Source: Candidatus Methanomethylophilaceae archaeon
GTDB lineage: Archaea; Thermoplasmatota; Thermoplasmata; Methanomassiliicoccales; Methanomethylophilaceae
DNA: 32,144 nt
NCBI GenBank assembly: GCA_017519045.1
Contig: JAFWTC010000065.1
Location: 1-32,144, forward strand
Reading direction: 5' to 3'
Below, one piece after another: positions 1 through 20,512 of the stretch. How positions within the stretch are numbered: position 1 is the stretch's first letter; the number at the start of each line of letters is the position of its first letter. The notes below the pieces were generated by a model. It did not search any database and was not told where the DNA came from. It was given only the letters and a program-made list of their open reading frames with translations. The translations under genes and the position numbers were made by a program.

Positions 1-130
1 ACCGTCCAGGCGGTCCCCAGCGGGCCCGGGAAGGAGCTTTGCGCCTACGTCGTCGGGGAGGCCGGCGCGGAGGCCGTGAAGGCCTGGGTCGCGGAGAGGA
101 AGCCCTCCTACATGGTCCCTGCGTTCGTCG
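1..130 (+). repeat. Exact 130-bp repeat in A-domain C-terminal region, copy 1 (module 1)
   Basis: Identical to 2902-3031. The repeat may extend further left than the window edge. Confidence 0.88.
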
Positions 131-430
131 TTGGCTTGGAGTCCGTCCCGCGCAACGTCAACGGGAAGGTGGACCGCAGGGCGCTTCCCGCGCCGGACGC
201 CTCCTCGCTCAGAGCCGAATACGTACCGCCGAGAGACGAGGCCGAAAGGAGGCTGTGCGAGGCCTTCGAGGACGTTCTAGAGGTCGGACGCATAGGAATC
301 GACGACGACTTCATTCGCCTCGGCGGGGACTCGCTGAAGGCCATCAGGATACAGAACCTGACGCCAGGAACCCGCACCGCGGACATACTGAGGTACCGCA
401 CGCCGAGGCTCATATCCCGGAGGACCGCCG
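1..430 (+). other. NRPS module 1 remnant: A-domain C-terminal subdomain and carrier domain
   Basis: The window opens inside the mobile C-terminal subdomain of an adenylation domain. The A10 motif NGKVD follows, with the catalytic Lys at codon 56 (bases 166-168). A carrier domain follows with DDDFIRLGGDS, the phosphopantetheine Ser being codon 111 (331-333). The substrate-pocket half of this A domain is outside the window, so its specificity cannot be read. Bases 1-130 are identical to 2902-3031 in module 2. Confidence 0.93.
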
Positions 431-6400: not shown

Positions 6401-9400
6401 ACCTCGACGCCCTGGAAAGCCGCATCTCGGAGGCCGGCGTCACCCACATGTTCATAACCACGCAGCTCGGGAAGATGTTCGCCCCCAGGGCCGCGGGCCG
6501 CCTGAAGGTGCTGATCCTGGCAGGCGAGAAGCTCGGCCCGTTCGACGCCCCGGAAGGCGTCAGGACGATAGACGCGTACGGACCGTCCGAGAACCACGTG
6601 TCGACGGCGATAGACGTGTCCCAGAGGTGCTGCGCATACTCGGTGGGAAGGCTGCTCCCCAACGTCAAGGGATACGTGCTGGACGCCGAGAAAAGGATGG
6701 TGCCGTACGGCGCGATAGGGGAGCTCCACCTCTCCGGATACCAGCTGTCGCTCGGCTACTTGAACCGCGACGATCTGAACTCGAAGGCGTTCCTGAGGAA
6801 CCCGTTCTCAAGCGAACCGGGATTCGAGAGGATGTACGCCACAGGGGACTTCGTGAAGATACTTCCTGATGGAACTATAGGGATACTCGGAAGGAGGGAC
6901 GGCCAGGTCAAGATCAGAGGAAACAGGGTCGAGCTCACCGAGGTCGAGGCTGCCATCAGAGAAATGCCAGGAGTTAGGGACGTCACCGTCCAGTCCGTGC
7001 CGGGCGCTTCCGGAAAGGAGCTCTGCGCATACGTCGTCGGCGATGCGGACGAGGATGCGATAAAGGCGTGGGTCGCGGAGAGGAAGCCGGACTACATGGT
7101 GCCTTCCTTCGTGATGCATCTCGATGAGATACCGCTCAACGTCAACGGAAAGGTCGACTGGAGGGCGCTTCCCGCTCCGGACGCGTCCTCGCTGAGGTCC
7201 GAATACGTCCCGCCGAGGAACGCGGACGAATCGTCCGTCTGCCATGCGTTCGAGAAGGCCCTGGGAATCGACAGGGTCGGAATCGACGACGACTTCATCC
7301 GCCTGGGCGGGGACTCACTGAAGGCCATAAAGGTCCAGAGCCTGTCCGGAAGGGCCTCCGCATCCGACATCCTCAGATACCGCACGCCCAGGGCGATAGC
7401 GTCGCATTCTATCGGCGGCCGCCCCCAGGAGTACTCCGAGGAGACCGGATGCCCGCTGTCCGAGAGCCAGCTGAACGTCTATCTGGACATGGTGGCCAAT
7501 CCTGAGGCAGGAGACTACGTCATACCGTTCTCTTTCAAGATTCCGGACGGAAGGACCGAATCGGATGCGAGAGTCGCGCTGGAAAGGGCCATATCGGCGC
7601 ACCCGTCGCTCAGAGGCAGGATATCCGAGAAGGACGGGACGCCGTGGATGCTCTTCGACGCTTCCCCAGAGATATCCTCTGAACGTCCGAGGATGCCGGC
7701 CATCGACGAGTGCGTCTCGTCGTTCGCGATATCCGACGGCATGATACGCGGCCTGATCAGCCACGTGGCCTTCGACGGATACTCGTCATCCGTGCTCTCC
7801 GAGGACCTGGCGGAGGCGTTCGATGGAAAGGAGCCGGCCAAGGATCCCGGAGTGCTCGTCTCGTCGTCTTTCGACCGGTCCGTGGCTGAAAGCCCCAGAT
7901 ACGAAGATGCCGAGAAGTTCTTCGAATCCATGCTATGCGACGCCGACGTCGATGCCGGCCTGATCGAGGACGTCGACGGATCCTCGGGATCCTCCACTAT
8001 AGTGCTATCCTGCAGTTCCGAGGAGATGGCGTCCAAGGCCGCGGCCTGCGGCTCCTCCCCGGGAGCCTTGGCGACCGCCGCGTTCGCATATGCGCTGTCC
8101 AGGTTCACCGGCCGCTCGGACGCCGTGTTCTGCATCGCGGAGAACGGAAGGGACGTCCCCGGGCTGGAGAGGTCCATAGGGATGTTCGTGAGGACCGTCC
8201 CGCTCAGGATAGACTGCTCGGATTCAACCGTGGATGAATTCGTCTCCAAGGCGTCAGAGACCGTGTACGGTGCCATGTCGTCGGGATTCGTCCCGTTCAG
8301 AAAGCTCTCGAGCGAATACGGCGTGAAGCCGGACGTCATATTCCAATACGCCCCCAGAGGGGAGGCCTCCGAGACGATGCAGGACATCCTCTCCGAGTCC
8401 CCGGACAAATTCTCTTCGTCCGGGACTTCCGTCGCCGTGATGGACCTGCCGGACGGGATGCGCGCCGTCATATCCCACGGGCTCTCCATGTCCGCCGAGA
8501 CGGCCGAGGGTATCCTGGATGCCCTGGACCGCACCCTCGCAGGCATCGTCCGCGATGAAAGGATGTCGGAGATAGTCTACGTCGATCCGGAGGACGCCGG
8601 AAGAAGCATCGCGGACGGAGGACGCGCCGACTACAGGTACGGAAGCATCGTCCATGCCATGCGCGCCCACATCTGCGACGACGTCATGCTGACGCATCTC
8701 GACAAGTCGTACACCTACCGCATGGCCGACCTCATCACCGACGGGATCGCCGCGAGGCTTCACAAGTCCGGCATCGGCAAAGGGGACGCCGTGGCGTTCC
8801 TGGTGCCCAGGAGCGAGTGGTACGTGCTCTGCGCCCTCGGCATAATGAAGTCCGGCGCGGCGTTCGTCCCGATGGACGACGCATACCCTGATGAAAGGCT
8901 GTCGTTCATGGCCGAGGATGCCGGCATCAAGGCGATCCTTGCCACCGCCGAGACCCTGTGCCGCGCATGGTCCGTCGCCGGAGTGGAGACGATAGACTGC
9001 ACCACCTGCGAATACGTGGGCGACGACGATTCGAACCCGGACCCCGATTCAACGGCGGTGATCCTGTACACGTCAGGGACAACCGGCAAGCCGAAAGGGG
9101 CCGCGCTCACCCATGCCGCCCTGGCGAACATATGCGAAAGCGTAGTCAAGTGCTTCGAATTGACGAGCAAAGACAAGATGGGCCTCCACGCCTCCATAGG
9201 GTTCGACGCGGGCCTGACCGTGTATTCCGCCCTGTTCGTAGGCGGCTCCATGGACGTGCTGCCTGAGGACGTGCGTCTAGACATGGGGAGGATGAACGAT
9301 TATCTGGCCTCCAACCACGTCACCGGGATGTCCGTGACCGCGCAGGTAGGGCGCATCTACGCCGCCGGCGTGAAGGAGCATGCCCTGAGGAACATCATGG

Positions 9401-12400
9401 TGGGAGGAGAGATGACGGGGTTCATCGAGCCGCCTCCCGGACTGAGGATCATCGACGCATACGGGCCTACCGAATGCGCCGTCTTCGTGACGCAGACCGA
9501 CGTGACGAAGAAGAGCACGCCCAGGTCCGTCGGACGCCCCAACGCCAACCTCAGAGCATACGTCCTGGACGCGGAGAAGAGGATCATGCCCCGCGGAGCC
9601 GCAGGCGAGCTGCACGTATCAGGGATACAGGTCTCGCCCGGATACCTCAACCGCGCGGACCTCGACTCGAAGGCGTTCATCGGAAACCCGTTCACCAACG
9701 ACCCCAGGCATTCCAGGATGTACTGCACCGGGGACTTCGCGAGGATACTCCCCGACGGATCGGTGGAGATGCTCGGAAGGAGGGACGGCCAGGTCAAGAT
9801 CAGAGGCAACAGGGTCGAGCTCACTGAAATAGAGACAGCGATCAGGGACATGCCCGGAGTCGACGGAGCCGTAGTCCAGGCCGTGGCCAGAGGCTCCGGG
9901 AAGGAGCTGTGCGCATACGTCGTCGGAGACGTGGATGAAGACGAGGTCAGGAGGCACGTGGGGGACGTGAAGCCCTCGTACATGGTGCCGACCTATGTCG
10001 TCAAGGTGGACTCCATCCCGCTGAACATCAACGGGAAGGTCGATTGGAGGGCGCTTCCGAAGCCGGACCTCTCCGAAGGCAGGGCCGAATACGTGGCGCC
10101 TAGGAACCATGCCGAGTCCGCCCTGTGCAAAGCGTTCGAGAACGCCTTGGGCATAGAGGAGATAGGAATCGACGACGACTTCATCCGCCTGGGCGGGGAT
10201 TCCCTCAAGGCCATAAGGGTGCAGAACGAATCGCAGGTGTCCACTACGGTGGACGTCCTCAGATACCGCACGCCCAGGGCGATCGCGGAGCACTCCGCGT
10301 CCATGGACTTCGACAGGGGCATGTTCTCCTACGAGGAGGGCTGCCCCCTGAACGAGAGCCAGATGAACGTCTATCTGGACATCGAGGCCAATTCGAAGAG
10401 CGAGGCGTACCTCGTGCCGTTCGAGTTCGAGATTCCTGCCGGAAGAAGCGAGGATGAGGCCGAGGAGGCACTGAGGAAGGTCATAGACGCCCACCCGATC
10501 CTCCGTTCCAGAATCGTCGAGAAGGACGGGGAGCCGTGGCTGGCGTTCGATTCCGAGCCGAATATCACCAAAGGGGCGTTGGAAAAGCCGGACCTGAGGA
10601 GATGCCTGTCATCGTTCTCCCTGTCGGAAGGATCCGTCAAGGGCGAGATCAGCCACATGGCCTTCGACGGGATGTCCTACGCGGTTCTGGCGGAAAGCCT
10701 GTCCAAGGCGTTCGCCGGGGAGACTCTGGAGAAAGACGTGGGGACGCTCGTATCGTCCGCGTTCGACAGGTCCGTCAAGGACAACGGCCGCTTCGCCGAG
10801 GCCGAGAGGCTGTTCGACTCGATGCTCTGCGACGGCGATGCGGATTCCGGCCTCGTCGGAGACCACGGGGCCCCAGGCAAGGTCGATCGCAGGATATCCG
10901 CCGACATCTCGTCCATAAAGGATGCGGCTAAAGGCTTCGGCACCTCCGTCGGGAACCTGATGACCTCGGCGTTCGCATACGCGCTGTCCAGGTTCACCGG
11001 CCGCTCGGACGCGGTGTTCTGCGTGCTGGACAACGGCAGGTCCATACCCGGGCTGGAAAAGTCCGTGGGGATGTTCGTGAGGACGGTGCCCGTCCGCATA
11101 GACTGCTCCGACAGGGACGCGGACGCATATGTGGCGAAGGCGTCGGAGACGGTGTACAGGTGCGTGGAGAGCGGCTTCATGCCGTTCAGGGAGCTGTCCA
11201 GTAAGTACGGCGTGAAGGCCGACGTGCTGTTCCAGAACATGCCTGTAACAGAGCTGCGCGACAGCCCTGATGCGGAAGAAGAGAGCATAGCCGACCTCGT
11301 CGCCGTCACCGTCGAGCTGCCCGACTCCGCACGTCTGGTGATATCCCACTCGTCGAGATTCACAGACGAGTACGTTTCCCGGTTCGTCGAGACGTTCGAC
11401 TCGGTTCTGAGCGGGATGATAGCCGGAGAAAGACTTTCGAAGATCAAGTTCGCAGGATGCATCCCGAAGCGCGGAGAGGCCAAGGCATTGAATCACTATA
11501 GTGCTATTGATGCCTTCCGTGAGAGCGTCGGCAAGTTCCCGGACAGAGCGGCGGTCACCTTTGAAGGTAGAACTACATCCTATGCCGAGGCCGATGCGAT
11601 TACCGACGGGATAGCCTCCAAGCTGTCCGAAATAGGCGTAAGAGCAGGCGACAGGGTGGCCGTCCTGGTCCCGAGGAGCGAGTGGTACTACCTGTGCGCC
11701 GTCGGGGTGCTCAAGACCGGCGCCTCATACGTCCCGATGGACGACGCGTATCCTGACGAGAGGCTGTCGTTCATGGCTAGAGATGCCGGGATCAAAGCCG
11801 TTCTAGTGACTTCCGGCACCATCGGCCGTGCAAGGTCCGTCGCCAAGACGGAAGCCGTGGACTGCGCGCGCTGCGGCAACAAGACGTTCCAGCCCATCAG
11901 CATCGAACCGCTCTCGCCCGCCGTCATCCTCTACACGTCAGGGACCACCGGCAAGCCTAAGGGCTCCATGATCACTCACAGGGCGATAGTCAACCTGAGC
12001 GAATGGTACGTCGGCCGCACGGAGATGAGGGAAGAGGACGTCTATGCCCTGTACACCTCGTATTCGTTCGACATGCACGCCATAGGGATGTTCCCGCCGA
12101 TGTTCTGCGGAGCATCCGTCGACGTCGTGCCCGAGGACGTCCGCCTCGACATGCGCAAGTTCAACGACCATCTTGTAGAAGCAAAGGCGACGCACACGTT
12201 CATGACCACCCAGGTCGGCAAGATGTTCGCGTCCATGGACCTGGCCTCCGGCCTCAAGGTGCTCCTCGTAGCCGGAGAGAAGCTTGGGGAGTTCCATGCC
12301 CCGGAGCACCTGGATGCGATGGACGGATACGGGCCGTCGGAGAATCTGGCCATATCCACCGCCGTTCCGATCAACGCCAGGATCGATCCCGACTCCGTCG

Positions 12401-15400
12401 GATTCCCGCTTCAGAACGTGGCGGCTTACGTTCTGGACGCCGAGAGGAGACCGGTCCCGCGCGGAGCGGTAGGAGAACTATTCCTCTCCGGATACCAGCT
12501 GTCTCTCGGATACCTGAACCGCGAGGACGCCAATGCCAGGGCGTTCTTCGCCAACCCGTTCTCAAGCGAACCGGGATTCGAAAGGATGTACGCCACAGGG
12601 GACTTCGCCAGGATCCTCCATGATGGAACTATAGGGATACTCGGAAGGAGGGACGGCCAGGTCAAGATCAGAGGCAACAGGGTAGAGCTCACCGAGGTCG
12701 AGGCAGCCGTCAGGGGAATGCCTGGCGTGAGGGACGTCACCGTCCAGGCCGTGCCTGGAGCTTCAGGAAAGGAGCTCTGCGCATATGCGGTCGGAGATGT
12801 CGATGAAGAAGCCGTGAAGGCCTGGGTCGCGGAGAGGAAGCCGTCGTACATGGTCCCTGCGTTCGTGATTGGTCTGGAGTCCATCCCGCGCAACGTGAAC
12901 GGGAAGGTGGACCGCAGGGCGCTTCCCGCGCCGGACTCCTCCTCCCTAAGAGCGGAGTACATACCGCCTAGGAACGAGATCGAGAGAAGGCTGTGCGAGG
13001 CCATGGAAGCCGTCCTGGATGTGGAAAGCATAGGGATCGACGACGACTTCATCCGCCTGGGCGGGGATTCCCTCAAGGCCATAAGGGTGCAGAACGAGTC
13101 GCAGGTGTCCACTACGGTGGACGTCCTCAGATACCGCACGCCCAGGGCGATCGCGGAGCACTCCGCATCCGTGGACTTCGACAGGGGCATGTTCTCCTAC
13201 GAGGAGGGCTGCCCCCTGAACGAGAGCCAGATGAACGTCTATCTGGACATCGAGGCCAACGGGAAGTACGACGCGTACCTGATCCCGTTCGCCTACGACA
13301 TGCCGTCCGGAACGACCGAGGAAGACGCGAAGGAAGCACTCGGCAAAGTCCTCGAGGCATATCCTGCCCTGTCATCCAGAATCACGGACAAGAACGGAGA
13401 GCCGTGGCTGATGTTCAATGCCAGACCCGAGATAAGATCCGACAGACCTGAGGCTCCCAGCCTGAGCAGGTGCCTGTCATCGTTCTCCGTCTCCGACGGC
13501 AAAATAGAGGGGCTGATAAGCCACATCGTGTTCGACGGGATGTCCTACGCGGTGCTGACGGAAAGCCTGTCCAAGGCGTTCGCCGGGGAGACTCTGGAAA
13601 AGGACGACGGATTGCTCGTATCGTCCGCGTTCGACAAGTCTGTCAAAGATACCGGCCGCTTCGCCGAGGCCGAGAGGCTGTTCGACTCGATGCTCTGCGA
13701 CGGAGATGCGGATTCGGGACTCGTCGGAGACTCCGGACGGTCTGGAGAGATGGCTAAGGATCTGTCGTCTCCAACCGAAGATATCAAGACAATGGCAAAG
13801 TCGTGCAGCACGTCGGTCGGGACCCTGATGACCTCGGCGTTCGCATACACGCTGTCCAGATTCACCGGCCGCTCTGACGCGGTGTTCTGCGTGCTGGACA
13901 ACGGCAGGTCCATACCGGGGCTGGAGAGGTCCATAGGGATGTTCGTAAAGACGGTGCCCGTCCGCATAGACTGCTCCGACAGGGCAGTCAAGGAATACGT
14001 CTCAATGGCATCCAAGACGGTGTACGGAAGCATCGCATCCGGATTCGTGCCGTTCAGGGAGCTTTCCAGCAAGTACGGGGTGAAGGCGGACGTCCTGTTC
14101 CAACACATCCCTGTCGCGAAATATTCCGCCGTGGAATCGTCCGACCCGTATGAAGCGGGCGGAATCGCGGACATGATCGCAATAACCGCTGAGCATCAGG
14201 ACAGGATGCGTCTGATCATTTCGCATTCATCCAGATTCAGCGATGAGTTCATCGCCAGGTTCGCGAAGACCTTCGACGACGTCCTTGCGGAGATGCTTAC
14301 AACAGAGAAGCTATCGGACATCAAGTTCCACGGAGACATCCCTACCAGAGGGGAATCCAGAGCATTGAATCACTATAGTGCTATGGATGCGTTCCGCGAG
14401 AGCGCAGACAAGTACCCGGACAGGGCGGCGGTCACCTACGAAGGTAGAACTACATCATATGCCGAAGTCGACGCCGTCACTGACGGAATAGCCTCCAAGT
14501 TGTCGGAGATCGGAGTGGGGGCAGGCGATAGGGTGGCCGTTCTGGTCCCGAGAGGCGAGTGGTACTACCTGTGCGCCGTCGGGGTGCTCAAGACCGGCGC
14601 CTCATACGTCCCGATGGACGACGCGTACCCTGATGAAAGGCTATCGTTCATGGCCGAGGACTCCGGAGCCGTAGTCACCCTCGTGACGCCGGATACCGCT
14701 GGAAGAGCCGCGGCGATGGGATTGGAGGCCTTGGACTGCACCTCCTGCGAAAGAAGGAAATTCCAGCCTGTAGGAATAGACCCCCTTTCGCCCGCCGTCA
14801 TACTTTACACGTCAGGAACCACCGGCAAGCCGAAGGGCTCCGTGATCACCCACAGGGCGATAGTCAACCTGAGCGAATGGTACGTCAGATACACCGGCAT
14901 GTCCAAGGATGACGTCTATGCGCTCTACACGTCGTATTCGTTCGACATGCACACCCTGGGGATGTTCCCGCCGATGTTCTGCGGAGCCTCCGTCGACATC
15001 GTGCCGGAGAGGGTGCGCCTCGACATGGCCGAGCTGAACAGGCACTTCGTGGACGCCGGCGCCACGCACACGTTCATGACCACCCAGGTCGGGAGGCTGT
15101 TCGCTTCCATGGACATGCCCTCAGGAATCAAGGCTCTCATGTACGGAGGCGAGAAGCTGGGAGAGTTCCACGCTCCGGAGCATCTGGGCGCCATAGAGAC
15201 CTACGGCCCCTCGGAGAACCTCGCGCTGTCCATGGCCATCCCGGTCAATACCAGAGCCACGCCCGATTCCGTCGGATTCCCGCTTCAGAACGTGGCGGCG
15301 TACGTGCTGGACGCAGAGAAGAGGCTGGTGCCGTACGGCGCGATAGGGGAGCTCCACCTCTCCGGATACCAGCTTTCGCTAGGATATCTGAACCGCGACG

Positions 15401-17307
15401 ACCTGAACTCCAAGGTATTCTTGAGAAACCCGTTCTCGGACGAGCCGGGATTCGAGAGGATGTACGCCACCGGGGACTTCTTCAGGGTCCTCCCTGACGG
15501 CACCCTCGGCGTCGTCGGAAGGAGGGACGGTCAGGTAAAGATAAGAGGCAACAGGGTCGAGCTCACCGAGGTAGAGGCTACCATCAAGGACATGCCCGGG
15601 ATCAGGGACGCGACCGTCCAGGCGGTCCCCAGCGGGTCCGGCAAGGAGCTGTGCGCCTACGTCGTCGGAGAAGCCGATGCGGAAGCAATGAAGACATGGG
15701 TCGCGGAGAGGAAGCCCTCCTACATGGTCCCTGCGTTCGTTGTCGGTCTGGAATCCATCCCCCGCAACGTGAACGGGAAGGTGGACCGCAGGGCGCTTCC
15801 GGCCCCGGACTCCTCCTCCCTGAGAGCGGAGTACGTCCAGCCCAGGAACGAAACGGAGGAGAAGATCTGCAACGTATTCGAAACCGTCCTGAACGTCGAA
15901 AGGGTCGGAATCGACGACGACTTCATACGCCTGGGCGGAGACTCTCTGAAGGCGATACGCGCGCTGGCGGACATCCGCAGGGAAATGCCGGGATTCGACA
16001 TCACCCCGGCGGACCTCATGAGGTATCACACGCCCAGGCTGATCGCCGAGCATACACGTTCCGCGGCAGGTTTGGAATGCCTGTACACGTTCGAGGAGGG
16101 CTGCCCGCTCCCTGACGCCATGCGCAACCTGTACGAGATCATCAAAGAGCACCCGGACGCCCATTACAACCGTCCGTTCCTGTTCACCTCGGAGAGCTGG
16201 AAGTGCGCCGAAGACGCGGTCGATGCCGTCAAGAGGCTGGTCGACGCCCACCCGATACTCCGCGCCAGGATAGCCGAGCGCGAGGACGGCCCCTGGCTCA
16301 CGTTCGACGGACCCGCCGACATCAAGGTCGTGAACGCGGACCCGGCCGATTCGAAGGACGCGTTCGTACGCGGATTCGACATCTTCGGCGGAGAGCTCTG
16401 CAGGTTCCAGGTACACGAGTGGGGAGGGTCCGTGTCCCTCCTGATGGATGCGCACCACATCGTGTTCGACGGAGTGTCCTTCGTCCCGATGGCCATGGAC
16501 TTCGCATGCGCCATCAACGGCATAGGGATCCCAATGGATGACGGCGTGCTCCGCTCCGCCTCCTACGACGTGTCCTCCAAAGGCAGGACCAGGTACAACA
16601 GGTCCAAGGCCCTGGCCGAAAGGGCGGTCATCGGATGCTCCGCCAACTTCCTCGAGGAAAGGCCGTGCGAGCGCGTCTTCGGCGACTTCGAAGGGGGCTT
16701 CAGCACTCCGAGGGACAGGATAGCCGAATGCGTCAAGAAGAACGACACCTCCGTCACCGCGTTCTTCGCGACCGCCTTGGAATACGCCTTCAAGAACATC
16801 TCCGGGAAGGAGAAGTGCCTGTTCTTCATAACGGAGGACGGGAGGGGCCACATGGACCTGTCCGGCTCCATAGGAATGTACGCGAGGGGATTCCCGGCCG
16901 CCGTGGCCATAAGGGAGCGCAGCCCGGCGAAGGTCCTTCAGAAGATGACGGACCACGTCATGGCCTCCATGACCTACGACGAGTACCCCTATTGGGAGCT
17001 CAGGAGGTACATGGACGTCGAATCCGTCGTCAGGCTCCAGTACGCCCATTTCACAGGGATGGACTCCGACGTCGTGGACCGCGTGCCCTTCGAGGTAGAG
17101 CCGCTGATCAGAAGCGAATACAGGCCTCTCACCGACCTGTGGATGAGGGTATCCGACGACGGCGACGGCTACTCCCTGCAGATCTACGCGTCGGAGAGGT
17201 ACGACGACGCCGTGGTCTCCGAGGTGGCGGAGGAGTTCGACAAGGCCGTCGCATTCCTGACGGAGGAGCTGAGCCGAGGTCAGGAGGCGTCCTCGCTCAC
17301 GGTGTAA
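1..17307 (+). CDS. Giant multimodular non-ribosomal peptide synthetase (5' end outside window)
   Basis: One uninterrupted frame from base 1 to a TAA at 17305-17307 encodes 5,768 residues; the true start lies to the left. Each module's adenylation (A) domain activates an amino acid as aminoacyl-AMP, the carrier (T) domain holds it on phosphopantetheine, and condensation (C) domains join residues. Visible order: A(C-terminal part)-T, C-A-T-E, C-A-T, C-A-T, C-A-T, C-A-T, C. All five complete A domains have the P-loop-like SGTTGKPKG and all six A ends have NGKVD with the catalytic Lys. All six T domains have GGDS with the Ser at codons 111, 1078, 2439, 3401, 4357 and 5315. No thioesterase, reductase, MbtH-like protein or phosphopantetheinyl transferase is seen in the window. 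The product is unknown; at least six residues are added by the part seen, one of them epimerised. NRPSs are uncommon in archaea. Confidence in the class is very high. Confidence 0.98.
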   Translation, partial: TVQAVPSGPGKELCAYVVGEAGAEAVKAWVAERKPSYMVPAFVVGLESVPRNVNGKVDRRALPAPDASSLRAEYVPPRDEAERRLCEAFEDVLEVGRIGIDDDFIRLGGDSLKAIRIQNLTPGTRTADILRYRTPRLISRRTAAQGAGHMFDEQTGCPLTESQMNVYLDLEAKGKKGAYLIPFKFQVPPGKTAEDARAALESVIAAQPALRGRIAMVDDGPRMLFDSHPAISDDLPDSIDVDSCMSAFSVSDREIRGLISHLAFDGMSSAILSDDLADALNGMPQQRNEGVLRAAEAEAAYRKTGYGSAEAFFDTILGGADCETGLLPDRDGTFGTVEKAIPLPIGRISSKAGSMGSTTGAFLASAFGYALSRFTGRSDAVFCVLDNGRDSPDVDRTVGMFVRTVPVRMDCSDRGILEFISESSKTVYEATSHGRYPFRKLSEAYGVGSDTLFQYIPGDEAASLERDLTGADPRATGLISDLTVMVGDMPDGPRVYVSHSDRYSDATAERLADAFARIVEGMTSCDRLSEIGLISESDLEIVRKMNDTSKPLECDGLVQAFRVSVSRFPERAAVSYDGRSVTYAEADGITDGIASELSRLGIGSGDFVAVLVPRSEWYFLCAIGVLKTGAAYVPMDDAYPDERLSFMARDSGAAVTLVTPETAIRAESMGLDAIDCISCERKKFQPVATAPSSPAVILYTSGTTGKPKGSVITHKAIDNMCEWYVGYTGMSEEDVYSLYTSYSFDIHTMGIFAPLYRGASVDIVPERVRLDMAELNRHFVDAGATHTFMTTQIGKLFASMDMPSRIKALMYGGEKLGEFHAPEHLGAIETYGPSENLALSTAVMVNDRNYPDSVGRLLPNIKAYVLDAEKRMVPCGAVGELHLSGYQLSLGYLNRDDLNSKAFLENPFSDEPGFERMYATGDFFRVLPDGTLGVIGRRDGQVKIRGNRVELTEIETAIRDMPGIRDVTVQAVPSGPGKELCAYVVGEAGAEAVKAWVAERKPSYMVPAFVVGLESIPRNVNGKVDRRALPEPDVSSLKAEYAAPRNEGERKVCEAMAKILGEEKVGIDDDFIRLGGDSLKAVRLAAACRSMGITVPAQEVIARRTVRSLSPLISAAVDAGPYSGPIGLSPIQERFMSSGTASQRDRHNQSVILRSSERIDLKALQKAVDAVTDHHDMLRALYSYPYSVRAPGVRVCEVEANPAADRERMSEAMDAAQGSLSLEEGRNMACLLFSLETDYVFIAIHHMAVDGASWSVILDDLSSAYRSIKSGNIPRLPPRTSSYASWLDACSEPLRREESEYWKAAEGAVPEAVRIASQQDFTLVSDFPLPSAEDGPFGFDSADILAAALAEAYSELAEEDGVTVRMEGHGRVIGDVERTVGWFTDMYPLRLAATGDPLKDLFESRRRLHEVPRGGIGYESERRGRPLPQITLNYLSNAFSFSDGLFETVFDIPMGRASDVLPDDRISLNVSDVGGVFAITGYHDGTDVMSRLPEAFMKAIRRVSKAATEPDVYMRPLSEGQLNVYLDEMAESKGTGYNAPGMVSVKGIPADKVRKAVEAVIEAHPVLKSRITEYDGTPWMVADSYPEISEGPLDGFARPFDLGGCLSRFRISDEFLVWDVHHAIMDASSRNVLIRDLRDALSGKDVAFETRAFDVSEWHAPESIWKAEEFFDGMLDGADADPGLVPDLDGKYGMSRKRISCGRKEIERTALSNGAAVGSLFASAFAYTLSRFTGRSDAVFVITDTGRASADMSDAVGMFVRTVPLRIDCSDAAVGEYIRKTSSAHLGAMANDFIPFRELSRRHGVGISVLFEYNAGINADFESEASLAGEALDAPPEYGIVSDIQCVVTDSEDGFDVSVYHSDSFSVGTADRMVQVFDSVVSGLASCERLSEIEIASEEDRMLSERINETSRELRFGDVLEAFRDAVAKVPDNAFVSVSGRSLSYAECDRMSDSVAGTMISAGVKPGDSVAVLVPRGEWYVLCALGALKAGASYVPMDDAYPDERLSYIVKDSSAKALLCTPETLRRGRSLSPVPVLDCTAESDTPTSLPGTNPEDPMVVLYTSGTTGKPKGSVLSRRAIENLSEWYCEYTDLKSNDVVGMHTSYSFDMHAVAIYPPILAGASVYIVPEEARRDLDALESRISEAGVTHMFITTQLGKMFAPRAAGRLKVLILAGEKLGPFDAPEGVRTIDAYGPSENHVSTAIDVSQRCCAYSVGRLLPNVKGYVLDAEKRMVPYGAIGELHLSGYQLSLGYLNRDDLNSKAFLRNPFSSEPGFERMYATGDFVKILPDGTIGILGRRDGQVKIRGNRVELTEVEAAIREMPGVRDVTVQSVPGASGKELCAYVVGDADEDAIKAWVAERKPDYMVPSFVMHLDEIPLNVNGKVDWRALPAPDASSLRSEYVPPRNADESSVCHAFEKALGIDRVGIDDDFIRLGGDSLKAIKVQSLSGRASASDILRYRTPRAIASHSIGGRPQEYSEETGCPLSESQLNVYLDMVANPEAGDYVIPFSFKIPDGRTESDARVALERAISAHPSLRGRISEKDGTPWMLFDASPEISSERPRMPAIDECVSSFAISDGMIRGLISHVAFDGYSSSVLSEDLAEAFDGKEPAKDPGVLVSSSFDRSVAESPRYEDAEKFFESMLCDADVDAGLIEDVDGSSGSSTIVLSCSSEEMASKAAACGSSPGALATAAFAYALSRFTGRSDAVFCIAENGRDVPGLERSIGMFVRTVPLRIDCSDSTVDEFVSKASETVYGAMSSGFVPFRKLSSEYGVKPDVIFQYAPRGEASETMQDILSESPDKFSSSGTSVAVMDLPDGMRAVISHGLSMSAETAEGILDALDRTLAGIVRDERMSEIVYVDPEDAGRSIADGGRADYRYGSIVHAMRAHICDDVMLTHLDKSYTYRMADLITDGIAARLHKSGIGKGDAVAFLVPRSEWYVLCALGIMKSGAAFVPMDDAYPDERLSFMAEDAGIKAILATAETLCRAWSVAGVETIDCTTCEYVGDDDSNPDPDSTAVILYTSGTTGKPKGAALTHAALANICESVVKCFELTSKDKMGLHASIGFDAGLTVYSALFVGGSMDVLPEDVRLDMGRMNDYLASNHVTGMSVTAQVGRIYAAGVKEHALRNIMVGGEMTGFIEPPPGLRIIDAYGPTECAVFVTQTDVTKKSTPRSVGRPNANLRAYVLDAEKRIMPRGAAGELHVSGIQVSPGYLNRADLDSKAFIGNPFTNDPRHSRMYCTGDFARILPDGSVEMLGRRDGQVKIRGNRVELTEIETAIRDMPGVDGAVVQAVARGSGKELCAYVVGDVDEDEVRRHVGDVKPSYMVPTYVVKVDSIPLNINGKVDWRALPKPDLSEGRAEYVAPRNHAESALCKAFENALGIEEIGIDDDFIRLGGDSLKAIRVQNESQVSTTVDVLRYRTPRAIAEHSASMDFDRGMFSYEEGCPLNESQMNVYLDIEANSKSEAYLVPFEFEIPAGRSEDEAEEALRKVIDAHPILRSRIVEKDGEPWLAFDSEPNITKGALEKPDLRRCLSSFSLSEGSVKGEISHMAFDGMSYAVLAESLSKAFAGETLEKDVGTLVSSAFDRSVKDNGRFAEAERLFDSMLCDGDADSGLVGDHGAPGKVDRRISADISSIKDAAKGFGTSVGNLMTSAFAYALSRFTGRSDAVFCVLDNGRSIPGLEKSVGMFVRTVPVRIDCSDRDADAYVAKASETVYRCVESGFMPFRELSSKYGVKADVLFQNMPVTELRDSPDAEEESIADLVAVTVELPDSARLVISHSSRFTDEYVSRFVETFDSVLSGMIAGERLSKIKFAGCIPKRGEAKALNHYSAIDAFRESVGKFPDRAAVTFEGRTTSYAEADAITDGIASKLSEIGVRAGDRVAVLVPRSEWYYLCAVGVLKTGASYVPMDDAYPDERLSFMARDAGIKAVLVTSGTIGRARSVAKTEAVDCARCGNKTFQPISIEPLSPAVILYTSGTTGKPKGSMITHRAIVNLSEWYVGRTEMREEDVYALYTSYSFDMHAIGMFPPMFCGASVDVVPEDVRLDMRKFNDHLVEAKATHTFMTTQVGKMFASMDLASGLKVLLVAGEKLGEFHAPEHLDAMDGYGPSENLAISTAVPINARIDPDSVGFPLQNVAAYVLDAERRPVPRGAVGELFLSGYQLSLGYLNREDANARAFFANPFSSEPGFERMYATGDFARILHDGTIGILGRRDGQVKIRGNRVELTEVEAAVRGMPGVRDVTVQAVPGASGKELCAYAVGDVDEEAVKAWVAERKPSYMVPAFVIGLESIPRNVNGKVDRRALPAPDSSSLRAEYIPPRNEIERRLCEAMEAVLDVESIGIDDDFIRLGGDSLKAIRVQNESQVSTTVDVLRYRTPRAIAEHSASVDFDRGMFSYEEGCPLNESQMNVYLDIEANGKYDAYLIPFAYDMPSGTTEEDAKEALGKVLEAYPALSSRITDKNGEPWLMFNARPEIRSDRPEAPSLSRCLSSFSVSDGKIEGLISHIVFDGMSYAVLTESLSKAFAGETLEKDDGLLVSSAFDKSVKDTGRFAEAERLFDSMLCDGDADSGLVGDSGRSGEMAKDLSSPTEDIKTMAKSCSTSVGTLMTSAFAYTLSRFTGRSDAVFCVLDNGRSIPGLERSIGMFVKTVPVRIDCSDRAVKEYVSMASKTVYGSIASGFVPFRELSSKYGVKADVLFQHIPVAKYSAVESSDPYEAGGIADMIAITAEHQDRMRLIISHSSRFSDEFIARFAKTFDDVLAEMLTTEKLSDIKFHGDIPTRGESRALNHYSAMDAFRESADKYPDRAAVTYEGRTTSYAEVDAVTDGIASKLSEIGVGAGDRVAVLVPRGEWYYLCAVGVLKTGASYVPMDDAYPDERLSFMAEDSGAVVTLVTPDTAGRAAAMGLEALDCTSCERRKFQPVGIDPLSPAVILYTSGTTGKPKGSVITHRAIVNLSEWYVRYTGMSKDDVYALYTSYSFDMHTLGMFPPMFCGASVDIVPERVRLDMAELNRHFVDAGATHTFMTTQVGRLFASMDMPSGIKALMYGGEKLGEFHAPEHLGAIETYGPSENLALSMAIPVNTRATPDSVGFPLQNVAAYVLDAEKRLVPYGAIGELHLSGYQLSLGYLNRDDLNSKVFLRNPFSDEPGFERMYATGDFFRVLPDGTLGVVGRRDGQVKIRGNRVELTEVEATIKDMPGIRDATVQAVPSGSGKELCAYVVGEADAEAMKTWVAERKPSYMVPAFVVGLESIPRNVNGKVDRRALPAPDSSSLRAEYVQPRNETEEKICNVFETVLNVERVGIDDDFIRLGGDSLKAIRALADIRREMPGFDITPADLMRYHTPRLIAEHTRSAAGLECLYTFEEGCPLPDAMRNLYEIIKEHPDAHYNRPFLFTSESWKCAEDAVDAVKRLVDAHPILRARIAEREDGPWLTFDGPADIKVVNADPADSKDAFVRGFDIFGGELCRFQVHEWGGSVSLLMDAHHIVFDGVSFVPMAMDFACAINGIGIPMDDGVLRSASYDVSSKGRTRYNRSKALAERAVIGCSANFLEERPCERVFGDFEGGFSTPRDRIAECVKKNDTSVTAFFATALEYAFKNISGKEKCLFFITEDGRGHMDLSGSIGMYARGFPAAVAIRERSPAKVLQKMTDHVMASMTYDEYPYWELRRYMDVESVVRLQYAHFTGMDSDVVDRVPFEVEPLIRSEYRPLTDLWMRVSDDGDGYSLQIYASERYDDAVVSEVAEEFDKAVAFLTEELSRGQEASSLTV
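2270..2372 (+). repeat. Exact 103-bp repeat in A domain, copy 1 (module 2)
   Basis: Identical to 14981-15083, between the A4 and A5 motifs that line the substrate pocket. A further exact 59-bp match follows at 2437-2495 with 15148-15206. Confidence 0.88.
2902..3031 (+). repeat. Exact 130-bp repeat in A-domain C-terminal region, copy 2 (module 2)
   Basis: Second copy of bases 1-130. A diverged relative is present at the end of the module 6 A domain (from about 15610). Confidence 0.88.
4540..7420 (+). other. NRPS module 3: C-A-T, C domain accepting the epimerised donor
   Basis: The C domain directly follows the E domain. It differs from its sister C domains in having a full HH pair (codons 1621-1622) but Ala in place of the Gly of HHxxxDG (HHAIMDA). 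By position it should be the D-donor/L-acceptor type. The A domain (about 5740-7190) has SGTTGKPKG after codon 2063, YGPSEN at codon 2193 and the A10 Lys at codon 2384. The carrier Ser is codon 2439. Tentative pocket code: D-M-V-I-I-A-A-V-S-K, unlike the other modules. Confidence 0.92.
7430..10310 (+). other. NRPS module 4: C-A-T with the most divergent A domain
   Basis: The C domain has SHVAFDG with His at codon 2588. The A domain (about 8620-10075) differs from the others at the pocket: GFDAGLT instead of SFDMH/SFDIH, and YGPTEC at codon 3154 instead of YGPSEN. Its A10 Lys is codon 3346 and its carrier Ser is codon 3401. Tentative pocket code: D-A-T-V-M-G-A-V-F-K, suggesting a small or hydrophobic substrate different from those of the other modules. 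This is inference from a hand alignment to gramicidin synthetase positions. Confidence 0.92.
10168..10391 (+). repeat. Near-identical T-C junction repeat, copy 1 (modules 4/5)
   Basis: 224 bp spanning the carrier Ser region and the start of the next C domain. It matches 13036-13259 with three mismatches by hand alignment, far closer than the surrounding module sequence. Confidence 0.85.
10320..13175 (+). other. NRPS module 5: C-A-T
   Basis: The C domain has SHMAFDG with His at codon 3552. The A domain (about 11480-12930) has SGTTGKPKG near codon 3980, YGPSEN at codon 4110 and the A10 Lys at codon 4302. The carrier Ser is codon 4357. Tentative pocket code: D-M-I-M-L-A-G-A-I-K. The carrier-to-next-C junction at the end of this module is nearly identical to the one at the end of module 4. 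Confidence 0.92.
13036..13259 (+). repeat. Near-identical T-C junction repeat, copy 2 (modules 5/6)
   Basis: Second copy of the 224-bp segment at 10168-10391. It lies one module period (2,868 bp) away. Confidence 0.85.
13190..16060 (+). other. NRPS module 6: C-A-T, A domain sharing its pocket region with module 2
   Basis: The C domain has SHIVFDG with His at codon 4508. The A domain (about 14370-15810) has SGTTGKPKG near codon 4937, YGPSEN at codon 5068 and the A10 Lys at codon 5260. The carrier Ser is codon 5315. Tentative pocket code: D-M-L-M-M-G-T-A-L-K, matching module 2 at eight of ten positions. This suggests that the two modules load the same or closely related amino acids. Confidence 0.92.
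14981..15083 (+). repeat. Exact 103-bp repeat in A domain, copy 2 (module 6)
   Basis: Second copy of 2270-2372, 12,711 bp away, in the pocket-lining part of the module 6 A domain. Confidence 0.88.
16070..17304 (+). other. NRPS terminal condensation-like domain (probable release domain)
   Basis: The protein ends in a C-type domain rather than a thioesterase or reductase. It is the only C domain in the window with a full canonical HHxxxDG (HHIVFDG, codons 5485-5491). No carrier domain follows it, so it cannot pass the peptide to a further site on this protein. Terminal C domains in other NRPSs release the chain by cyclisation or by transfer to a soluble amine or alcohol, and the same role is inferred here. 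Transfer to a carrier on a separate protein is the alternative. Confidence 0.85.
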
Positions 17308-18800
17308 CCGTTGTCCATGAGCACGCCCAAGACGGCCAGCGCGATGTAGACGATCCCGGTGACGGTGCCGAAGGCCACGAACCCGTCGCCGAAGAACCCC
17401 GTGACGGCCTCCGTGATGCCCGGATATATCTGCTCGAAGGCGTCCGTAGCCAGCTCCAGAAGCCCGGTCCCGCTGTAGCCGGTCTCCTCGGCCACGTAGG
17501 CGAACGGCGACGCCGCCATCTCCGAGTCCATGACGAAGGATATGATGAACGCGGAGACCGCGGCTCCGAGCGTGGCTCCCATGGAGCGGACCAGGCTGAC
17601 CGTGGCCAGGCTCATCCCCATCTCATCCTTGGGCGTGTGGTTCTGAAGGGACACGGATATCGTGCTCCCCAAGGCTCCGCATCCGGCCCCGAACAGCGAC
17701 ATCACGACTATGACCGCTGTTATGGGGGCGTCGGTTCCGAAGAAGTAGAGCAGGGTCAACGATATCCCCATCAGGAAGAAGCCTGCCATCACCCAGAGCC
17801 TGTATCCGGTCCTGGGAAGGAGCATCCCGTTCAGGACGGTGAACACCCCCATGGTGATGAAGAGCGGAATGCACAGGAACGCGCAGTCCATCTCCGACAG
17901 TCCGTACACGTAGATTCCGAAGAGCGCGATGAAGGACACCACGCCCAGCATCCCCAGGTTGTTCATGAACATGAAAAGGGCCGAAAGCCTCACCGCCTTC
18001 CTGCGCAGAAGGGAAGGGGACATCACCGGCTCGGGAGCCTTGTTCTCTATGCGGACGAACACGACCAGGAGCACGACGGCGACCGCCGCCACGGCCATGA
18101 CCTGCAGCGCGTCCATCGACGAATAGAACTGGAACGCGAGCAGGAACGCCAGGATCAGCAGGGACAGGACGGCCATCCCGGAGTAGTCTATAGCCTTCCT
18201 TCCCTCCGAAGCCGTCTTGGGGAATCCCTTGGACGTCAGCAGGAAGAACACGGCTACCAGGGGCAAATTGATCAGGAACACCCAGTGCCAGGTCGTCACC
18301 GCGCATATGAATCCGCCGACGAACGGCCCGGCGACCATGCTCAGCGTGGACAGCAGGTTTATCCCGGCCATAACCCTGGCCCTGTCCTCCGGGGCGTATA
18401 TGTCGGCTATGAAGGCGTTGGACACGGGCATTATCATTCCTCCCCCCGCCCCCTGGACGGCGCGGCTGACGACCATCATGTCCGGGCTGAAGGACGCGGC
18501 CGCCATCATCGACCCTATAGTGAACAGCCCCACGCCCAGGTACAGGACCGGCCTGCGGCCGAACTGGTCGGAGATCTTCCCGGCTATCGGTATCATGACC
18601 GCCTGGGTGAGAAGGAACCCAGCCGTGAGCCAGGAATAGTAGCCCAAGCCGTCCAAATCGGCCATTATCTGCTTCCCGCAGATGCTGATTATGGTTCCGT
18701 CGAGGCATGTGACGATGAATATCATGCACAGTCCCGCGAGAAGGCGCCTCCTCACGGCACCGTCCATGGCTCCGCATGACTCCTGACCGGCGGCCGACAT
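17280..18800 (-). CDS. MFS drug/metabolite exporter, DHA2 (EmrB/QacA) family
   Basis: A 506-residue membrane protein with about 14 predicted helices that exports small molecules in exchange for protons. Family marks: CLDGTIISI near residue 32 in helix 1; motif A GKISDQFGRRP at 74-84; a glycine-rich GAGGG stretch at 118-122; and WHWVFLINLP at 171-180, typical of DHA2 pumps. Start: ATG at 18800, because a box A element (CTTTTATCG, 18822-18830) lies about 26 bp upstream, leaving a leaderless transcript; the open frame continues to 19019 but that stretch runs through the neighbouring gene. The stop is TGA. The gene is tail-to-tail with the NRPS and overlaps its last 28 bp. Export of the NRPS product is the likely job, inferred only from position. 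It begins 32 bp after the hydrolase gene but has its own promoter. Confidence 0.93.
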   Translation of the reverse strand: MSAAGQESCGAMDGAVRRRLLAGLCMIFIVTCLDGTIISICGKQIMADLDGLGYYSWLTAGFLLTQAVMIPIAGKISDQFGRRPVLYLGVGLFTIGSMMAAASFSPDMMVVSRAVQGAGGGMIMPVSNAFIADIYAPEDRARVMAGINLLSTLSMVAGPFVGGFICAVTTWHWVFLINLPLVAVFFLLTSKGFPKTASEGRKAIDYSGMAVLSLLILAFLLAFQFYSSMDALQVMAVAAVAVVLLVVFVRIENKAPEPVMSPSLLRRKAVRLSALFMFMNNLGMLGVVSFIALFGIYVYGLSEMDCAFLCIPLFITMGVFTVLNGMLLPRTGYRLWVMAGFFLMGISLTLLYFFGTDAPITAVIVVMSLFGAGCGALGSTISVSLQNHTPKDEMGMSLATVSLVRSMGATLGAAVSAFIISFVMDSEMAASPFAYVAEETGYSGTGLLELATDAFEQIYPGITEAVTGFFGDGFVAFGTVTGIVYIALAVLGVLMDNGYTVSEDAS

Positions 18801-18821
18801 GTCCAGCCCTATCGGGAATGG

Positions 18822-18830
18822 CGATAAAAG
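18822..18830 (-). promoter_or_regulatory. Box A promoter element of the exporter gene
   Basis: The minus strand reads CTTTTATCG, centred 26 bp before ATG 18800. It lies just inside the 32-bp gap after the hydrolase stop codon. Confidence 0.55.
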
Positions 18831-18832
18831 GA

Positions 18833-19351
18833 TTAGCGGGCGGCGGAGAGCCTGTCCAAGGACACCGTGCGGCAGATGGCCTCCACGCGCTCCACGTTGG
18901 CGTCGTCGGTGGCGGCCGTGCCTCCTTCCAGGATGAACGGCGTGAACCCCAGGTCTATCGCGCAGAAATAGGTGGAAAGGACGCAGAGATGGGCCACCAT
19001 CCCCGCCAGGACGATGCATTCCGCCCCGACGTCATGCAGGACGCGGGCCAGGTCCGACCCTAAGAACGAGTTCATCTCGTCCTTATGGACGCGGATGTCC
19101 GAATCGGAAACCCTGAGGCCGTCCACGAACGCCTCCGGATCCTCCATCTAGTCGGACGTGTTGCTGTTCATCGGGTCGTAGCAGATCAGGACCACCGGGG
19201 AGCCGGACTCGTGGAACAGGTCCAAGGCGCGGTTCATCTCCCCTATATGGCGGTTCACGGACCCGTACAGCCCCTCGCTGACCGTATAGAACTTGTTCTG
19301 GACGTCCACCACGACGAGGGCCACCTTCCTCCCCTCCACTTCCAAGGCCAT
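18833..19351 (-). CDS. Cysteine hydrolase, isochorismatase/nicotinamidase fold, with in-frame UAG at codon 68 (candidate pyrrolysine protein)
   Basis: Reading through one TAG (19148-19150) gives a 172-residue protein of normal family length with all three catalytic residues: Asp16 in VVVDVQ, Lys90 in VHKDEMNSF and Cys123 in AHLCV. The Asp lies before the UAG and the Lys and Cys after it, so neither half could work alone. The frame is unchanged across the UAG, the next codon is ATG, and the true stop is TAA. Family members hydrolyse amides (nicotinamide, ureido compounds) or isochorismate; the Cys argues for an amidase-type hydrolase, substrate unknown. The start ATG at 19351 lies about 25 bp from a box A element (GTTATTATCG). 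The simplest reading is UAG decoded as pyrrolysine; a nonsense-mutated pseudogene is the alternative. The gene is divergent from rfcS and upstream of the exporter gene. Confidence 0.82.
19148..19150 (-). other. In-frame amber codon (UAG), possible pyrrolysine site
   Basis: The minus strand reads TCC GAC TAG ATG GAG. Homology to the cysteine hydrolase family continues in the same frame on both sides. The codon falls in the loop before the conserved FVDGL segment, away from the three catalytic residues. Confidence 0.7.
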
Positions 19352-19370
19352 GGGTGCGCCAAGGCTTGGA

Positions 19371-19380
19371 CGATAATAAC
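19371..19380 (-). promoter_or_regulatory. Box A promoter element of the UAG-containing hydrolase gene
   Basis: The minus strand reads GTTATTATCG, centred about 25 bp before ATG 19351. An intact promoter argues that the gene is expressed. Confidence 0.5.
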
Positions 19381-19403
19381 ATGTGCGGTCCGCGAACGAT
19401 ACC

Positions 19404-19411
19404 GTTTAATC
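19404..19411 (+). promoter_or_regulatory. Box A promoter element of rfcS
   Basis: GTTTAATC, about 28 bp before ATG 19436, in the 84-bp divergent gap shared with the hydrolase gene. Confidence 0.5.
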
Positions 19412-19435
19412 GGATTAACAACATGGAAGAGGGCA

Positions 19436-20512
19436 ATGAACGAGATCTGGACGGAGAAGTACAGGCCCAGGACGCTGGACGACGTCGTGGGGCAGAAGCA
19501 TGTGTCCGAGAGGCTGAAGGCGTACGTCGCATCGAGGAACATGCCTCACCTGATGTTCACCGGACCCGCAGGCACCGGGAAGACCACCTGCTCCCTGGCC
19601 TTGGCCAAGGAGATGTTCGGCGGAGAGTGGAGGGGCAACTTCATAGAGCTCAACGCCTCCGACGAGAGGGGGATCGACGTCGTGCGCGGGAAGATCAAGG
19701 AGTTCGCCAGGACGGCTCCCCTCGGGGGCGCCGAGTTCAAGATCATCTTCATGGACGAGGCCGACGCCCTGACCTCGGACGCCCAGGCGGCGCTCAGGAG
19801 GACCATGGAGAAGTACTCGTCCATCTGCCGCTTCATACTCTCCTGCAACTACTCGTCGAAGATCATAGACCCCATCCAGTCCAGATGCGCGGTATTCAGG
19901 TTCAAGCCCCTCTCGGCCGAGGACGTCGAGGCCTACCTCAGGAAGATCGTAGCCCAGGAGAATATCCAGATCGACGACGACGCCATGAAGGGGCTGGTCA
20001 TGGTCGCCAGGGGGGACATGAGAAGGGCGGTCAACTCCCTCCAGGTGGCTGCGTCCCTCGGGAAGAAGATCGACCTGGACCTCATCTACCAGACCATCGG
20101 CATGGCCAACCCGGAGATCGTCAAGAACATCCTCGAGACCGCGCTCGGCGGCAACTTCGTCAAGGCCCGCGACACCCTCGAGAACGTCATGATAGAGTAC
20201 GGGCTCTCCGGCCAGGACATCATAAGGCAGATCCATTCCACGTTCTTCGACCTGAGCCTATCGGATTCCGAGAAGGTCAGGCTGGTGGACAAGACCGGGG
20301 AGATCGAGTTCCGCATAGTCGAGGGGAGCAACGAGAGGATACAGCTCGAGGCCCTCCTGGCATATCTGGTGATGATCGGCGGAAACAGGAGGCGACGTCG
20401 CTCCAACGCCCTCAGGATCCTGGGGAGCATCCTCTCCGAGGCCTCGTCCAGGACCTCCCGCGACGAGCACAGCAGCAGGACGTCCCTCTCCCTCTGGAGC
20501 TCTTTATCATAG
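19436..20512 (+). CDS. rfcS: Replication factor C small subunit (clamp loader ATPase)
   Basis: An AAA+ subunit of the archaeal clamp loader, which opens the PCNA ring and places it on primed DNA. Start ATG 19436 gives the classic MNEIWTEKYRP opening; the open frame extends upstream to 19085, but that stretch is antisense to the hydrolase gene. Motifs: Walker A GPAGTGKTT (43-51), Walker B IIFMDEAD (103-110), and the SRC box with the arginine finger (149-151). Family similarity ends near residue 317 (base 20386). The frame then lacks a stop and runs about 40 more residues antisense to the phosphatase gene, ending at a TAG. The tail is Arg/Ser-rich and looks non-native. Box A GTTTAATC at 19404-19411 lies about 28 bp before the start. 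The function is secure; the 3' end is not. Confidence 0.95.
   Translation: MNEIWTEKYRPRTLDDVVGQKHVSERLKAYVASRNMPHLMFTGPAGTGKTTCSLALAKEMFGGEWRGNFIELNASDERGIDVVRGKIKEFARTAPLGGAEFKIIFMDEADALTSDAQAALRRTMEKYSSICRFILSCNYSSKIIDPIQSRCAVFRFKPLSAEDVEAYLRKIVAQENIQIDDDAMKGLVMVARGDMRRAVNSLQVAASLGKKIDLDLIYQTIGMANPEIVKNILETALGGNFVKARDTLENVMIEYGLSGQDIIRQIHSTFFDLSLSDSEKVRLVDKTGEIEFRIVEGSNERIQLEALLAYLVMIGGNRRRRRSNALRILGSILSEASSRTSRDEHSSRTSLSLWSSLS

Follow-up and report, generated by a model that had tools for sequence, protein, structure and literature searches.

The window analyzed in this study, a stretch of 32,144 nucleotides from a Candidatus Methanomethylophilaceae archaeon, contains the minus-strand frame of a small cysteine hydrolase that is interrupted by a TAG codon, which raises the question of whether this codon ends the protein or is read as an amino acid. 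The first-pass annotation favored the latter, with pyrrolysine as the inserted residue, and described a frame of 172 codons with TAG at codon 68 and TAA as the final stop. Translation of 18833-19351 (-), where TAG was written as O, confirmed the description in every point, yielding 172 residues, with codon 68 as the only TAG and TAA as the final codon (Table 1). When read through the TAG, the protein matched PF00857 over residues 11-152 with 78.4 bits, against a cut-off of 27. The part after the TAG scored 58.7 bits on its own, and the part before it had no family match at E 0.001. PF00857 was the sole family match, with no similarity to MtmB, MtbB, or MttB. The TAG splits a set of three residues that had been proposed as catalytic, with Asp16 before it and Lys90 and Cys123 after it; each was identical in all 32 aligned match regions, and together they form what we take to be the catalytic triad of the isochorismatase-like family.

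Table 1. Features of the hydrolase locus and other genes with an in-frame TAG. Positions refer to the window unless a locus (L) is given; G000 is the genome of the window, and L005 is the region with the homologue in G070.
Feature	Position	Strand	Basis or remark
Isochorismatase-like cysteine hydrolase gene	18833..19351	-	172 codons, interrupted by a single TAG and closed by TAA
TAG, codon 68, proposed pyrrolysine codon	19148..19150	-	Translation; TAG also at this codon in L005
Asp16 codon, proposed catalytic residue	19304..19306	-	Asp in 32/32 aligned; role presumed from the family
Lys90 codon, proposed catalytic residue	19082..19084	-	Lys in 32/32 aligned; role presumed from the family
Cys123 codon, proposed catalytic nucleophile	18983..18985	-	Cys in 32/32 aligned; role presumed from the family
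ATG, codon 69, directly 3' of the TAG	19145..19147	-	Possible restart site if the enzyme were split
TAA stop of the hydrolase gene	18833..18835	-	Translation; L005 ends in TAA as well
TTATTA, TATA-box-like, 28 nt before the hydrolase ATG	19374..19379	-	Sequence; similar box in L005
Replication factor C (RFC) small subunit-like gene, divergent neighbor	19436..20512	+	PF08542, 88.2 bits
MFS transporter frame, downstream neighbor	17280..18803	-	PF07690, 162 bits
RNA polymerase subunit A'' (PF04998), TAG codon 101	L060 2173-3657 (G000:C28)	+	Also L078, L079, L080, L085, L086, L087
Dihydroneopterin aldolase (PF04038), TAG codon 46	L063 11031-11414 (G000:C39), and L098	-	Site also TAG in G070; G057 has Ala
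YjeF-like / NAD(P)H-hydrate dehydratase, two TAGs	L066 14729-16117 (G000:C52), and L101	+	First common with G070; second is Asp there
Amino-acid kinase family gene with TAG	L054 7743-8474 (G000:C4)		Site without TAG in relatives compared
Chorismate mutase/prephenate dehydrogenase (TyrA-like) with TAG	L061 7289-8407 (G000:C32)		Site without TAG in relatives compared
Polyprenyl synthetase with TAG	L066 6437-7423 (G000:C52)		Site without TAG in relatives compared

The TTATTA box 28 nt upstream of the hydrolase ATG has a counterpart 29 nt upstream of the ATG in the second TAG species. The promoter at a leaderless distance that had been noted earlier is borne out to this extent, and its placement fits a leaderless start without proving one. 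The RFC frame has a TAG as its own end (20512), outside the part that some relatives conserve; this TAG says little about termination because it lies past the point at which the relatives' sequences diverge. Elsewhere in the window, positions 76-17307 (+) form a single open frame of 5743 codons.

Membership of the hydrolase in PF00857 follows from a score above the curated cut-off and the presence of the Asp-Lys-Cys triad. Scores against NCBIfam equivalogs remained far under their cut-offs, at 49.9 of 195 bits for the PRK11440 hydrolase, 35.6 of 370 for biuret amidohydrolase, and 29.9 of 377.95 for RutB. The top match both by sequence (E 4e-9) and by fold (E 2e-7) was 3eef, an N-carbamoylsarcosine amidase-related protein of Thermoplasma acidophilum, whose Asp, Lys, and Cys align with the triad of the hydrolase. 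However, the two share only 27% identity, so the activity of 3eef is not transferable. We know of no UAG in the 3eef protein. The hydrolase is presumably an active enzyme, and by analogy with its fold neighbors the substrate might be an amide or a ureide. An AlphaFold model was built from three sequences; the best model had a mean pLDDT of 75.8, and three of the five models were at 33.5-36.3. Residue 68 sits between strands 53-57 and 86-88 of the model, which is poor in that stretch, and since residues 60-76 are below pLDDT 50, the structural claim on residue 68 is limited to its location in a loop.

The means for reading UAG as pyrrolysine are encoded in the same genome. The window itself contains no tRNA gene, and, as noted in the first-pass annotation, no pyl genes; a search of the rest of the genome found all of them on contig C8, which encodes tRNA-Pyl with anticodon CTA as well as PylS, PylB, PylC, and PylD. 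Genes mtmB, mtbB, and mttB with in-frame TAG lie beside them, and a second mtmB with in-frame TAG is on contig C82, so that mtmB occurs twice and mtbB and mttB once each. All four belong to the class of genes in which pyrrolysine is usually found. The search for pylS, pylB, pylC, and tRNA-Pyl covered this genome, and that for PylD covered seven genomes (G000, G070, G062, G057, G069, G067, and G064), where a protein above the family cut-off was found in every one. The stretch near the pyl genes (L034) also encodes a BrxD-like (BREX) ATPase (15371-16633 (-), 152.9 bits, cut-off 350) and an MrcB_N protein (11966-12634 (-)).

Homologues of the hydrolase were found at E 0.001 in 64 of 102 genomes of the family, and among the match places listed, an in-frame TAG occurred in three: the window, G070, and G064. 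The alignment covered 32 of the match regions, namely that of the window, two paralogues of its genome (L002 and L003), and 29 from other genomes. The TAG at codon 68 was found in two of them, the window and G070 (L005), and among the aligned regions is limited to these two species; L041 and G070 were counted as one witness of this TAG, not two. The residue at this codon in other relatives, which the first-pass annotation had left to be compared, is encoded by GAA in G062, GCC in G057 and G069, and GAC in G067, and nine different residues occupy the site among the other 30 aligned regions. The two TAG68 genes are sisters in the tree (support 95/87), and neither contains a frameshift or a second stop. 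A chance in-frame TAG is ruled out, because the family similarity spans the codon and the same TAG is present in the second species. The gene order RFC-hydrolase-MFS transporter is common to the window's genome, G070, and G062, and RFC adjoins the hydrolase in G067 and lies about 2 kb away in G057 and G069. Neither RFC nor the MFS transporter was found in the G064 stretch around the homologue, and the TAG of that homologue (L014, G064:C37, match position 22), which falls opposite residue 26 of the hydrolase in the alignment, is a separate event.

The window and G070 hydrolases are 78% identical in protein and 78% in nucleotide sequence, and their divergence allowed selection to be compared on the two sides of the TAG. 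Before the codon, dN was 0.155 and dS 0.923, and after it, dN was 0.138 and dS 0.827, which gives a dN/dS of about 0.17 on each side and hence equal purifying selection. Downstream of the TAG, 29.7 changes over 235.5 nonsynonymous sites stand against 38.3 over 76.5 synonymous sites (Fisher p 1e-10). The TAG was kept although the two genes differ at about half of their synonymous sites, or by about 0.9 changes per site.

Use of UAG beyond the hydrolase was surveyed in a sample of 320,116 bases, composed of the window and 21 further stretches and covering about 17% of the assembly. Among 212 predicted genes of at least 100 residues, 169 ended in TGA, 23 in TAA, and 20 in TAG. Across all six frames of the sample, TAG was commoner than TAA (3335 versus 1961); being rarer at gene ends, TAG is under-used as a stop. 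Seven of the 20 apparent TAG ends were interrupted genes of known family, one of them in L071. In the other 13 of the 212 genes the TAG still seems to be the end, and no clear coding sequence continues past it, so UAG may terminate translation at least in part. A scan for TAGs with coding sequence on both sides returned 12 rows representing 11 distinct genes: four methyltransferases, one gene with no family, and six genes of other families, namely RNA polymerase A'', polyprenyl synthetase, chorismate mutase/prephenate dehydrogenase, amino-acid kinase, YjeF-like, and dihydroneopterin aldolase. The gene sample required 100 residues before the TAG, by which the hydrolase was invisible to it. The scan listed a frame only if it contained one or two TAGs and scored at least 8 for coding on both sides; the hydrolase was absent from its output as well, and an overlapping, higher-scoring RFC frame from the first possible start (19085) is the suspected cause. 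As both missed the hydrolase, other UAG genes have probably been undercounted.

For RNA polymerase A'', 31 genomes of the genus were searched, and seven of the 26 with a match carried the TAG. All seven TAGs fall in one alignment column, and the five aligned among the other 19 carry Lys (4) or Met (1). The Pfam match starts after the TAG, so it is the alignment with relatives that supports the claim here; the RNA polymerase TAG is a stronger case than that of the hydrolase. The aldolase TAG was present in two of 29 genomes with a match, and searches for the polyprenyl synthetase and the amino-acid kinase found TAG only in the genome of the window; no orthologue of either was found in G070, which is 61% complete. 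TyrA-like TAGs in G059 and G056, each the second position of its match, were left uncounted. Other TyrA-like matches contained TAA (G057 and G069) or TGA (G074 and G052).

With the hydrolase included, an orthologue from G070 was available for the comparison of six non-methyltransferase UAG sites. The TAG was kept at four of them (hydrolase 68, RNA polymerase 101, aldolase 46, and YjeF-like 91) and was replaced by a sense codon in G070 at two (Asp at YjeF-like 137 and Glu at TyrA-like 240), about as expected from the 78-94% identity of the proteins themselves between the two genomes. UAG therefore seems to be gained and lost in the ordinary manner of a sense codon, and the hydrolase appears typical of the set. 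The first-pass annotation had called the hydrolase an unusual case, but it is less unusual than was supposed, with many non-methyltransferase genes predicted to carry pyrrolysine in the order and several more in its own genome.

The earlier proposal of a candidate pyrrolysine protein is thus supported as the best explanation, and a search for the contrary results named in the first-pass annotation did not turn them up. UAG68 is very probably read as pyrrolysine, a decoding that we infer, together with its efficiency, from sequence. The account that we consider highly probable is that of a full-length hydrolase of 172 residues with a pyrrolysine at UAG68 that arose in the ancestor of the two species and is tolerated. 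PylS would charge tRNA-Pyl(CUA) of the same cell, the ribosome would insert pyrrolysine at UAG68, and a single isochorismatase-fold cysteine hydrolase would be made from the whole frame. The codon would have arisen in the ancestor of the two sister species, at a site between strands two and three that is variable, and would have persisted by being usable as a sense codon in the lineage. Since site 68 varies freely in relatives, the pyrrolysine is most likely tolerated and not catalytic. No Rfam family was found in 18700-19500 up to E 1, and elements of this type near UAG are not regarded as obligatory (PMC4153887). RNA folds near the TAG were weak in the two TAG species, with z of -2.06 and -1.59 downstream and +1.25 and +0.89 across the codon. 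A similar hairpin in both was given no weight, as it lies over conserved codons.

Selection might instead maintain the pyrrolysine for a specific role, such as lining the substrate pocket. The survival of the TAG through this much synonymous change would suit such a role, as would the position of the equivalent loop, which is close to the active site in related amidases. However, the diversity of residues at site 68, a UAG retention roughly that given by protein identity, and the unreliable modelling of the loop make it unlikely. An enzyme in two pieces is rather improbable as well. Here translation would stop at the UAG and restart at the adjacent AUG, and chains of 67 and 104 residues would assemble into the hydrolase. 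Both TAG68 species contain TAGATG, and a two-chain enzyme would likewise demand equal constraint on its halves, but Met69 is also found in the sense-codon relatives L007 and L008 and so predates the TAG or is independent of it, no Shine-Dalgarno-like run was seen just 5' of Met69, and the cut would, according to the model, separate strands of one domain. Decay of the gene beyond the UAG or an error in the base, both raised in the first-pass annotation, might be suspected because the stop is in frame, the assembly is a draft of 86 contigs, and the genome has paralogues of the family, but are very unlikely given the recurrence of this TAG in a second species that was assembled independently, the intact frames of both genes, the equal constraint on both sides, and the invariant Asp16, Lys90, and Cys123.

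More broadly, it is tentatively proposed, as a plausible reading that falls somewhat short of probable, that UAG is an ordinary pyrrolysine codon in household genes of this clade, where pyrrolysine synthesis would be needed for transcription itself, given the RNA polymerase A'' UAG in seven species, beyond the use of methylamines. If so, the hydrolase would be one of many genes tied to pyrrolysine synthesis. The hydrolase offers a clean and testable case, being a small protein with UAG in two species and with sense-codon relatives as natural controls. Taken with the other UAG genes, it shows how, by drift, a stop codon can become an ordinary sense codon. Standard annotation would split such genes in two.

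Archaea in which all TAG codons stand for pyrrolysine were reportedly described in a 2025 paper in Science, and Thg1 of the Methanosarcinales is said to carry pyrrolysine by neutral evolution. Thg1 resembles the hydrolase in that it has no relation to methylamines and its pyrrolysine is reportedly neutral, and differs in being another protein of another order. A literature search that covered texts exclusive of supplements yielded no matching description of a pyrrolysine isochorismatase-like protein. Besides methyltransferases, only transposases and Thg1 are named as pyrrolysine proteins in the available part of one paper (PMC8211752), and that of another contains nothing on extra UAG genes (PMC10804542).

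Closer parallels are found in the methanogens of the same group. In the rumen strain ISO4-H5, an in-frame amber codon is reported for 46 genes, among which are the methylamine genes and also metabolic enzymes such as adenylate kinase, but the terms isochorismatase, nicotinamidase, and cysteine hydrolase are absent from the main text of that paper, to which the comparison was confined (PMC5011839). In Ca. M. alvus, 16 non-methyltransferase pyrrolysine proteins were predicted and linked with rare TAG ends (1.6%), according to the available text (PMC4153887). The likeness extends to the same order, the presence of pyl genes, in-frame TAGs within non-methyltransferase genes whose homologues lack them, and the rarity of TAG ends; Table 7 of that text names no isochorismatase-type protein, with some rows hypothetical and without comment (PMC4153887). 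As presented there, the UAGs of Ca. M. alvus were predicted in single genomes (PMC4153887), whereas the hydrolase UAG is common to two species and the constraint on both of its sides was measured. The hydrolase is thus a well-supported addition to the pyrrolysine proteins outside methylamine metabolism, of a kind already predicted in this order.
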